From positions 1,612,001-1,676,000 of the forward strand of contig JACPYL010000010.1 in NCBI GenBank assembly GCA_016196065.1: a DNA stretch of 64,000 nucleotides, read 5' to 3'. This stretch comes from Acidobacteriota bacterium (GTDB lineage: Bacteria > Acidobacteriota > Terriglobia > Terriglobales > Acidobacteriaceae). The notes below the pieces were generated by a model. That model was not told the DNA's origin, made no database searches, and saw only the letters and a program-made list of their open reading frames with translations. The translations under genes were made by a program, and so were the position numbers. This document shows positions 53,144 through 57,052 of this stretch, one piece after another (positions within the stretch are counted from its first letter, which is position 1; every line of letters begins with the position of its first letter).

Positions 53144-53707
53144 TCAGCGTGTCTCCGTAGTGATCATGTCGAGGAAGTACTGGTGAATGCGGGAATCGTC
53201 GCTCAGTTCGGGATGGAATGTCGCGGCCAGCGTCTTCCCTTTGCGCACCATGACGGAATCGCTGCCTTCTGTGGCAATGATTTCAATCCCGTCGCCGATG
53301 CGCTCGATCTTTGGAGCGCGGATGAATACCATTTCAATGGGATTGTGGAGAAACTGTCCTTCGCGAATGGAACTGTCAACCTGGCGTCCGTAGGCGTTGC
53401 GGCGGATGGTGATGTCGAGGGCGCCTAGTCCTGCCTGCTTCGGGTTTTCCACTTCATTCGCCAGCAGAATCGCTCCGGCGCAGGTGCCGAAGGTTGGCTT
53501 CGTCTGCACGAAGTCTTTCAACTTCTTGAAACCTTCTTCGCCGAGCAGTTTCAAGAATGTGCTCGACTCGCCGCCCGGAATGACAAGAGCGGCAATTTCC
53601 TCAAACTGCTCCGGCTTTTTGACAAGCACGACTTCGGCGCCGAGTTCTTCGAGGCGGCGGCGGTGAGCGTCGAAATCGCCTTGCAGGGCCAGGACACCGA
53701 TTTTCAT
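53144..53707 (-). CDS. pdxT: Pyridoxal 5'-phosphate synthase, glutaminase subunit
   Basis: 187 residues. Class I glutaminase marks: LVIPGGESSTFLKLL, nucleophile Cys in PTFGTCAGAILLA and His/Glu in TFHPELSDD. It supplies ammonia to PdxS in de novo PLP synthesis. It lies about 97 bases downstream of pdxS. Confidence 0.96.
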   Translation of the reverse strand: MKIGVLALQGDFDAHRRRLEELGAEVVLVKKPEQFEEIAALVIPGGESSTFLKLLGEEGFKKLKDFVQTKPTFGTCAGAILLANEVENPKQAGLGALDITIRRNAYGRQVDSSIREGQFLHNPIEMVFIRAPKIERIGDGIEIIATEGSDSVMVRKGKTLAATFHPELSDDSRIHQYFLDMITTETR

Positions 53708-53804: not shown

Positions 53805-54728
53805 CTACCAGCCGCGCGTCTGCAGCATGTGCGCTTCGTCCAAACTGGAAACGGCCAGGCCTTTCATGGCGCCAACCAGATCCTCGCTGACTTCAAGCAG
53901 CACTTTCGGGTCGTTGAAATGGGTAGCGGCTTTGACGATGGCTCGGGCACGCTTTTCCGCTTCCGCCGGATCGGCGAACTCGGTGGAGCTCTTCATGAAG
54001 ATTCCGGAGCCGACGAATACGGCCTCGGCGCCGAGTTGCATGACGAGCGAAGCATCGGCCGGTGTCGCGATGCCACCGGCGGAGAAGTTTGGTACGGGCA
54101 GTTTGCCGTCGCGCGCGACCATCCTCACCAGTTCGTACGGCGCCTGATGTTCCTTGGCTTTCGCGTAGAGTTCTTCTTCACCGAGTACGGTAAGAATTCG
54201 CATCTCCTGTACGATCTGGCGGATATGTTTTACGGCGTGCACCACGTCCCCTGTGCCGGCTTCGCCCTTGGTGCGGATCATGCATGCGCCTTCGGCAATG
54301 CGGCGAAGAGCTTCGCCCAGATTGCGCGCACCGCAAACAAACGGGACCTTGAAGGCATGTTTATCGACGTGGTGGGCTTCGTCGGCGGGGGTAAGGACTT
54401 CGGATTCGTCGATGTAGTCGACACCGAGTTGTTCGAGAATCTGCGCTTCCGCGAAGTGGCCGATACGGCATTTCGCCATGACCGGAATGTCGACGGTCGC
54501 CATGATTTCGCGAATGATCTTGGGAGAGGCCATTCGGGCTACGCCGCCTTCGGCGCGGATTTGCGCGGGAACACGCTCGAGCGCCATGACTGCAACGGCG
54601 CCGGCTCTCTGGGCGATCTCCGCCTGTTGCGGCGTGGTGACGTCCATGATGACGCCGCCTTTGAGCATCTCGGCGAGGCCGGTTTTCAGGCGAAGGCTGG
54701 TGGTGTTGTGTCCGTTGTTCTGCGACAT
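53805..54728 (-). CDS. pdxS: Pyridoxal 5'-phosphate synthase, synthase subunit
   Basis: 307 residues from ATG 54728 with AAGGAGA upstream. The active-site set is complete: Asp in GGVIMDVTT, Lys in [11 protein letters not shown] and Lys in [12 protein letters not shown], with the phosphate site [13 protein letters not shown]. It builds PLP from ribose 5-phosphate, glyceraldehyde 3-phosphate and ammonia from PdxT. Divergent from a MocR/PdxR-type regulator. Confidence 0.97.
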
Positions 54729-54749
54729 GATGATCTCTCCTTGCAACGG

Positions 54750-54902: not shown

Positions 54903-54949
54903 AGTGGTATCCTTACTATGTCCATTTGACATAAACACACCATACCACT
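54903..54949. promoter_or_regulatory. Nested palindromes between pdxS and pdxR-like gene
   Basis: An outer pair AGTGGTAT (54903-54910) and ATACCACT (54942-54949) encloses an inner pair TATGTC (54917-54922) and GACATA (54928-54933); both are perfect. The outer arm ends three bases before the regulator's ATG. It is the obvious operator for the divergent MocR-type regulator and pdxS. Confidence 0.65.
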
Positions 54950-54952
54950 GCG

Positions 54953-56422
54953 ATGGGGCGCAAAACTACTTCCTTACCGCTCAGCCTGCCCGCTCCAGCG
55001 GCCGGCGTGCCCCTCTATCACTGGCTCTACGAACAATTGAGGATCGCGATCCTGGAGGGCAGACTCCATCCGGGCGCACGCTTGCCGGCAACGCGCGATC
55101 TCGCCCTTGCCTACAAATTGTCGCGGGCTACGATTGTTACCGCATTCGAGCAACTGAAATCGGAAGGCTACGTCGAAGGCAGGACGGGCTCCGGAACCTA
55201 CGTGAGCAAGGTCTTGCCGGACCAATTGCTGCAGGTTGGAGGAGTGCCGACGGAAAGCCGGTTGCCGCGCCGCGCGGTCACGCTTTCTGAGTATGCGAAA
55301 CGGTTGCAGCCGTTCCGGTCGCGGGTACGATATCCAGTACGCGCGTTTCGTCCGAATCAGGCGGCTCTCAATTTGTTTCCGACGACGCTGTGGGCACAAA
55401 TCGCGGCACGTCGGCTACGGAAAGCTTCCACAAAACTTCTAGCGGGCGGCGAGACGCTTGGCTATCGCCCGTTGCGCGAAGCGGTGGTGGAATATCTCAA
55501 CACTTCGCGGGGTGTGAAATGCACGGCCGATCAAGTGTTGATTGTTTCCGGCGCGCAGGAAGGACTGGACCGCACAGCTCGGCTCCTGCTCAATCCCGGC
55601 GAACCGGCGTGGATGGAGGAGCCGGGATATCCAGGGGCGGCAGCCGTGCTGCGGGCGGTCGGGGCGAAGATATGCGGAGTGCCCGTCGATGCGGAGGGGC
55701 TGGATCTGCAGCGTGGAATCAAACGCTGGCCGCGTCCGAAACTGGTTTACGTTACGCCTGCTCACCAGTTCCCTCTTGGCGTAACGATGAGCCTGCGACG
55801 AAGGCTGGCATTGCTGGAATGGGCGCGCAAGTCCGGCGTGTTGATCTTCGAGGATGACTACGACAGTGAATATCGCTATTCGGGTCGTCCAGTGCCGGCA
55901 TTGCAGGGACTGGATCGGGCGGGCGTGGTCATTTTTGGAGGAAGTTTCAGTGCAGTAATGTTCCCTGCGATGCGCCTGGGATATCTCGTCGTCCCACCGG
56001 AAATGGTGGACGTATTTGCCGCGGCGCAGTCGGTGAGTACACATCATCCGCCGCTGCTGGGACAGGCGGTGTTGTGCGACTTCATCCGCGAAGGGCATTT
56101 CGCGAGGCACATTCGACGCATGCGCGAAGTGTATGCAGAACGGCTAGGAGTGTTGCTGAAGGGAGCGCGCGAGAAATTGGCCGGACTCGTGGATATTTCG
56201 AATGTCGAGGCGGGTTTACAGACGATTGGCTGGCTCGGGGATGGGTTGCTTGCGGAAGATGTGGCCGAGGCTGCAGCGAAGAAGAACGTGGAAGTCATCC
56301 CCCTTCGTCGCTATGCCTTTGGAAGAGTTCGAGGCAATGGGATTGTGTTGGGATTCGCTGCGGTGGAGCCGCGGGAGTTGCGGCGCGGGGTGGAAGAGTT
56401 GGCGGCGGTTCTTCGGCCGTGA
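54953..56422 (+). CDS. MocR/PdxR-type GntR regulator with aminotransferase domain, PLP lysine replaced
   Basis: 489 residues. The N-terminal GntR helix-turn-helix (ARLPATRDLALAYKLSRATIVTAFEQLKSEGYVEGRTGSGTYV, about 43-83) is linked to a fold-type I aminotransferase domain (GYRPLREAVVEYLNTSRGVKCTADQVLIVSGAQEGLD, TPAHQFPLGVTMSLRRRLALLEWA, FEDDYDSEYRYSGRP). In the PLP-lysine motif SFSK the Lys is Ala334 (GCA). No ribosome site precedes the ATG, so the mRNA may be leaderless. It is divergent from pdxS, where PdxR proteins regulate PLP synthesis. Confidence 0.9.
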   Translation: MGRKTTSLPLSLPAPAAGVPLYHWLYEQLRIAILEGRLHPGARLPATRDLALAYKLSRATIVTAFEQLKSEGYVEGRTGSGTYVSKVLPDQLLQVGGVPTESRLPRRAVTLSEYAKRLQPFRSRVRYPVRAFRPNQAALNLFPTTLWAQIAARRLRKASTKLLAGGETLGYRPLREAVVEYLNTSRGVKCTADQVLIVSGAQEGLDRTARLLLNPGEPAWMEEPGYPGAAAVLRAVGAKICGVPVDAEGLDLQRGIKRWPRPKLVYVTPAHQFPLGVTMSLRRRLALLEWARKSGVLIFEDDYDSEYRYSGRPVPALQGLDRAGVVIFGGSFSAVMFPAMRLGYLVVPPEMVDVFAAAQSVSTHHPPLLGQAVLCDFIREGHFARHIRRMREVYAERLGVLLKGAREKLAGLVDISNVEAGLQTIGWLGDGLLAEDVAEAAAKKNVEVIPLRRYAFGRVRGNGIVLGFAAVEPRELRRGVEELAAVLRP

Positions 56423-56450: not shown

Positions 56451-56523
56451 CTGTCATCCCGAACGAAGTGAGGGATCTGTATTGTGCCGAACTGCAGATC
56501 CCTCACTTCGTTCGGGATGACAG
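56451..56523. terminator. Perfect bidirectional hairpin, family D
   Basis: 29-base arms (56451-56479: CTGTCATCCCGAACGAAGTG then AGGGATCTG; 56495-56523) are fully complementary with a 15-base loop. It lies between convergent genes (stops at 56422 and 56576). Although it lacks a T-run, it is a plausible terminator for both. Confidence 0.8.
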
Positions 56524-56575
56524 ATATTAAGATTTATTCCTTTACACCACTGCTGGCCAGCTTTCCCTGCGAGAG

Positions 56576-57052
56576 TTAGCGATCCACAAATCCTGCGAAC
56601 ATCTTGTGTGGATCGATGGCGATGAACAGGCCTTGTCCGCGGGCCAGTACTTCGTCTTTCTGATTCAGGATCTCGGCCATATTCATGTGGCGACGTCCTT
56701 TTACTTTTACTTCTCGGGACTCGACGCGCAGAGGCTTATTCAGGGGCACAGGTTTCAGGTAGTGAATCGTGATCTCCGAAGTGAGCGCGACTACCTGGCG
56801 GAGTTTGTTCACTTTGCCCATGGCTTCGTCGAGGATGGTGGCGATGATGCCGCCGTGGCAGTGCCCGGGCGGTCCGGTGTAGCGCTTGTCAAGGCGGAAG
56901 CGGCAGACGTAGCCATTGCGTTTTTCGTCGTACGTGAAGCGCAGGCGCATGCCGTCTGGATTGTTCTTGCCACAGGCGAAGCAGTAGTTTTTTTGCAGGC
57001 GGACGTACACCGTGCTGTGTCCGCGTCCGCGGGCGGATTTCCTGGTAGCCAT
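56576..57052 (-). CDS. PaaI-type hotdog thioesterase
   Basis: 158 residues. The hotdog marks are CHGGIIATILDEAMG (active loop), LTSEITIHYLKPVPLNKPLRVES and the N-terminal YCFACGKNNPDGMRLRF, which carries Cys-x2-Cys as in many bacterial acyl-CoA thioesterases. It hydrolyses acyl-CoA esters; the substrate is unknown. Confidence 0.9.
   Translation of the reverse strand: MATRKSARGRGHSTVYVRLQKNYCFACGKNNPDGMRLRFTYDEKRNGYVCRFRLDKRYTGPPGHCHGGIIATILDEAMGKVNKLRQVVALTSEITIHYLKPVPLNKPLRVESREVKVKGRRHMNMAEILNQKDEVLARGQGLFIAIDPHKMFAGFVDR

Follow-up and report, generated by a model that had tools for sequence, protein, structure and literature searches.

A MocR regulator encoded beside the PLP synthase genes of an acidobacterium has lost the lysine to which these proteins anchor PLP, and our alignments indicate that this loss is a natural change that has become fixed across a clade of related proteins. 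The gene lies at positions 54953–56422 (+ strand) of the window, that is, the whole 64,000-nucleotide stretch of DNA that we analysed, and is an intact open reading frame for 489 amino acids. A first-pass annotation had reported that the SFSK motif of MocR proteins reads SFSA here, and this holds: inside GGSFSAVMFPAMRLGY, codon 334 (GCA; positions 55952–55954, + strand) specifies alanine where the lysine that forms the Schiff base with PLP would stand; HMMER alignments place Lys312 of GabR and the lysine of Bacillus clausii PdxR (7pq9) at this site. We lean towards a reading in which the protein is an autoregulator of pdxST that senses, without a covalent bond, PLP or a B6 phosphate related to it, and in which the branch that first shows the gene next to pdxS is also the one that lost the anchor lysine. 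The ligand and the direction of control are what we infer from sequence; in broader terms, the regulator probably reads vitamin B6 (PLP), or a product made from B6, without the usual chemical bond.

The protein has the architecture of a MocR regulator. Pfam matched both PF00392 (GntR winged helix–turn–helix, wHTH) and PF00155 (aminotransferase class I/II), with the wHTH at residues 22–84, a linker at about 85–135 and an aminotransferase domain of fold type I at about 138–487. The AlphaFold model (mean pLDDT 86.6) and Foldseek, whose best PDB matches include GabR (4n0b) and DNA-bound holo-PdxR, likewise give a GntR wHTH at the N terminus joined to an aminotransferase fold. The motifs HQFP (271–274) and EDDYDSEYRY (300–309) read as first described; the third aminotransferase motif is kept too, but as MRLGY (340–344), not LRLGY. 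Against the NCBIfam PdxR model NF052282 the protein scores 414 bits (cut-off 320), a score that does not discriminate, because lysine-containing sisters encoded beside cupin or EamA genes also exceed the cut-off. Its earlier description as PdxR-like is apt by position and NCBIfam score but not by descent, as its nearest kin are those lysine-containing MocRs beside cupin or EamA genes.

Relatives were collected from the relatives of the genome, its family, order and class; a further source was a GTDB scan covering about 85,000 species genomes, of which the best 80 loci were used. Lysine occupies the position equivalent to 334 in 94 of the 114 distinct aligned sequences (query included). The lysine-less proteins number 19 with the query, having Ala (10), Asp (4), Glu (4) or Leu (1) there; one of the four Glu proteins is a copy interrupted by Ns. 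This alignment of many MocR relatives, which the first-pass annotation had proposed as a check, thus extends the absence of the lysine to 18 proteins and the gapped copy, and the whole clade, with A, D, E or L at 334, lacks the internal-aldimine lysine of a MocR protein. Because these proteins come from different species and their codons vary (GCA, GCG, GCC, GCT, GAC, GAA, GAG and CTG), chance and sequencing error can be excluded. In a maximum-likelihood tree computed without the position-334 column and without the gapped copy, the 18 proteins form a single clade (ultrafast bootstrap 100, SH-aLRT 98), and its sister clade comprises 45 proteins that all keep the lysine (support 100/99). Given this topology, one loss on the main branch suffices, with at least three further residue changes within the clade, and we set aside many independent losses. 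A distant MocR with arginine at the Schiff-base position (L027), which the genome search returned and which belongs to another family of the same order, falls outside the clade. The members represent different species of one family of soil Acidobacteria (Acidobacteriota) and diverge to as low as 66% identity. No further members were found outside the family among matches at E 1e-175 or better in the order- and class-wide samples, and no lysine-less proteins outside Acidobacteriota appeared among the best 80 loci of the GTDB scan.

The lysine-less regulators also share a genomic position. In the window, pdxS (53805–54746, − strand; PF01680; the start may be the ATG at 54728) encodes the PLP synthase subunit and pdxT (53144–53707, − strand; PF01174) the glutaminase subunit, and the divergent arrangement of regulator and pdxS noted at first reading recurs in every member of the clade. 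Beyond pdxS lies pdxT in most clade loci whose contig extends far enough; in L039, L042 and L043, about 1 kb of other sequence separates the two. No pdxS was found near the 45 lysine-containing sisters within the flanking DNA examined (about 3 kb per side for many). Their divergent neighbours are other genes, in many cases one for a cupin protein and in some one for an EamA transporter; in L044, L050, L053, L122 and L129 the partner is a small, apparently secreted cupin-like protein. Since all lysine-less regulators adjoin pdxS and none of the 45 sisters does, the loss of the lysine and the association with pdxS fall on the same branch. Lysine-containing MocRs also occur near pdxS in two other Terriglobia, but they are distant in the tree and not the nearest kin of the clade.

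Many genomes of the same genus lack the regulator. In these congeners pdxS usually follows the same 4HBT thioesterase gene (56576–57052, − strand, in the window) with a gap of 70–285 bp (longer in two); in regulator-bearing genomes the gap is 1.6–3 kb, with the regulator between. The adjacency of pdxS and the thioesterase gene in most gene-free congeners therefore marks the site that the regulator gene occupies. In one of the two other Terriglobia, the distant lysine-containing MocR (45% identity; L086:2757-4918) sits at this same site and is preceded by three similarly arranged boxes (TTGGTCC / TACCATTATT / TACCATT), an apparent case of one MocR replaced by another at the same locus. Directly downstream of the regulator gene in the window, positions 56451–56524 hold a near-perfect palindrome (GTCATCCCGAACGAAGTGAGGGATCTG...CAGATCCCTCACTTCGTTCGGGATGAC) with a predicted fold of −61.5 kcal/mol (z −11.5); judged by its matches to about 40 other genome sites (82 match rows, both strands counted), it is a member of a dispersed REP- or MITE-like family.

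An operator had been proposed between the regulator and pdxS, and it proved to be real, being conserved in 19/19 pdxS–regulator intergenic regions of the clade. In the window it spans 54905–54947 and consists of TGGTAT (54905–54910), GTCCATTT (54920–54927) and ATACCA (54942–54947); boxes 2 and 3 point the same way, and box 1 points the opposite way. The common pattern across the 19 regions is TGG...CCATTT...TACCA with almost constant spacing, so that each has the mixed direct and inverted boxes in a target promoter region that are typical of PdxR. The exact pattern of the window's operator has a single match in the 5.5-Mb genome, with no second site that would indicate a wider regulon, and nothing operator-like was found upstream of pdxS in congeners without the regulator gene; together these observations point to a local circuit made up of pdxST and the regulator gene itself. 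Sister operators share the architecture TGGnnn / GTCCATTTA / TACCACTT, and because of this DNA recognition was probably inherited. A consensus scan of the regulator–pdxS intergenic region gave no match to a sigma-70-type promoter, which leaves promoter placement uncertain and makes any choice between activation and repression of pdxST a guess.

In the mechanism that we favour, a dimer would bind the three boxes and set pdxST expression, and it would also repress its own gene, as suggested by the position of boxes 2 and 3 just before the regulator start codon. The pocket would hold PLP or a different B6 phosphate (for example, PMP) through phosphate, ring-stacking and ring-nitrogen contacts. 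With no internal aldimine, the ligand would exchange freely, and the regulator would read the pool of free ligand and, like PdxR, move from one box arrangement to another. The first-pass suggestion that PLP is sensed differently, or that another ligand is sensed, would accordingly follow. MocR operators often combine boxes in direct and in inverted orientation, and which of these PdxR prefers is altered by PLP (PMC5320631). PLP enzymes with a mutated lysine often still bind PLP non-covalently and form external aldimines (PMC6424897). Against the mechanism stand two engineered regulators: EnuR K302H, which does not bind PLP, is a constitutive repressor (PMC8739950), and MpaR K314A gave no reporter activity and a lower protein level (PMC10790758).

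The evidence for a B6 ligand comes from the rest of the pocket. We mapped GabR residues, the functions of several of which have been described (PMC6677901), onto the clade through pairwise alignment. The equivalents of Tyr205, His248, Phe250, Asp279, Tyr281, Asp282, Gly308 and Arg319 are identical in 18/18 lysine-less proteins, with zero entropy; among them is D301, the counterpart of Asp279, which binds the pyridine nitrogen. The retention of the other aminotransferase-domain motifs noted at first reading thus extends to all eight pocket positions checked. Position 334 itself ranks 39th of 360 in variability within the domain, in the most variable tenth or so. Pairwise dN/dS values are mostly 0.03–0.1 in both domains, indicating strong purifying selection, and the aminotransferase domain is no less constrained than in lysine-containing kin. 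This selection and the intact relatives rule out a decaying gene or pseudogene. G166, R207 and W220 are among the residues that are fixed in the lysine-less clade and different in the sisters.

An alternative that we consider unlikely, yet the strongest of the rivals, is that the pocket reads not free PLP but a B6 adduct (a PLP–amino acid aldimine, which would be stable with no lysine to displace it) or PMP; the amine of PMP would be well matched to the Asp or Glu that some members have at 334. An acidic residue is present there in 7/18 proteins and in the gapped copy, but the acid is not required, as Ala stands there in the window protein and Leu in one other. The equivalent of GabR Arg430 (R453) is present in 16/17 lysine-less proteins versus 24/45 sisters, a contrast that is confounded by descent. 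The external aldimines still formed by the PLP-enzyme lysine mutants would be in keeping with an adduct, and no PdxH scored above the cut-off in the genome, so that this enzyme might not be available to turn PMP back into PLP. If this reading were true, PLP synthesis would be linked to amino-acid or amine supply.

Slightly less probable again is that the regulator binds no B6 at all and is locked as a repressor or an activator, its aminotransferase domain serving only to dimerize or to sense an unrelated ligand. EnuR K302H, which retains dimerization, behaves in this way, and the free variability of position 334 would fit. However, the PLP-contact residues should drift in an empty pocket, whereas all eight are invariant in proteins with as little as 66% identity; because residues with a known role in PLP contact have stayed invariant, we consider a B6 ligand likelier than an empty pocket. 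Very improbable is the remaining idea, that another lysine took over the Schiff base or that the codon reflects a sequencing error or a decaying gene: the query carries 16 lysines besides position 334, but in the alignment of the 18 proteins none is newly conserved. K189 (14/18; RGVKC segment) is the sole lysine to reach a frequency of 60% in the clade, and the sister group, too, most commonly has R/K there. Intact genes under strong selection carry the change as a fixed feature, so that both of the objections raised at first reading fail.

Compared with known systems, the clade is, by sequence, MocR-like in architecture and linked to pdxS as PdxR is, but without the defining lysine. It resembles the PdxR proteins of B. 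clausii, Corynebacterium glutamicum and Listeria, which are MocR regulators of pdxST, in its divergence from pdxS, its wHTH and aminotransferase fold and its multi-box operator; it differs in the missing Schiff-base lysine and in its kinship, in the tree, with MocRs whose neighbours are cupin or EamA genes. GabR of Bacillus subtilis is the best structural match (4n0b), and its pocket residues are conserved, with the Arg430 equivalent retained, but Lys312 is replaced by Ala334 and Arg207 by Gly228, and the neighbour is pdxS, not gabTD. The lysine-containing sisters (about 58–64% identity for L044, L050, L053 and L080, for example) have the operator architecture in common, but they keep the lysine and are divergent from cupin, EamA or other genes, never from pdxS in the examined set. 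EnuR K302H and MpaR K314A have the same lysine replaced; they are engineered and lost control, whereas the present clade is natural, fixed and under selection.

The PLP lysine has been stated to be conserved across MocR clusters (PMC6677901) and present in all MocR-like regulators (PMC2018728). We found no description of a natural lysine-less MocR in the open-access literature; an earlier mention elsewhere is possible. The loss goes unnoticed in automated annotation with the NCBIfam PdxR model. We give an even chance to the fuller proposal that, in this natural MocR lineage, a B6 phosphate or a PLP–amine adduct is sensed without an internal aldimine, and that losing the lysine was adaptive, making a free-pool sensor out of a cofactor-dependent regulator as it took control of pdxST. 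The lysine is regarded as a hallmark of MocR proteins, and its removal abolished control in both engineered cases; the natural clade suggests that a sensor measuring the cofactor itself may not need the covalent bond. It thereby makes testable a general question about MocR sensors, namely whether PLP serves them as a cofactor or as a ligand.
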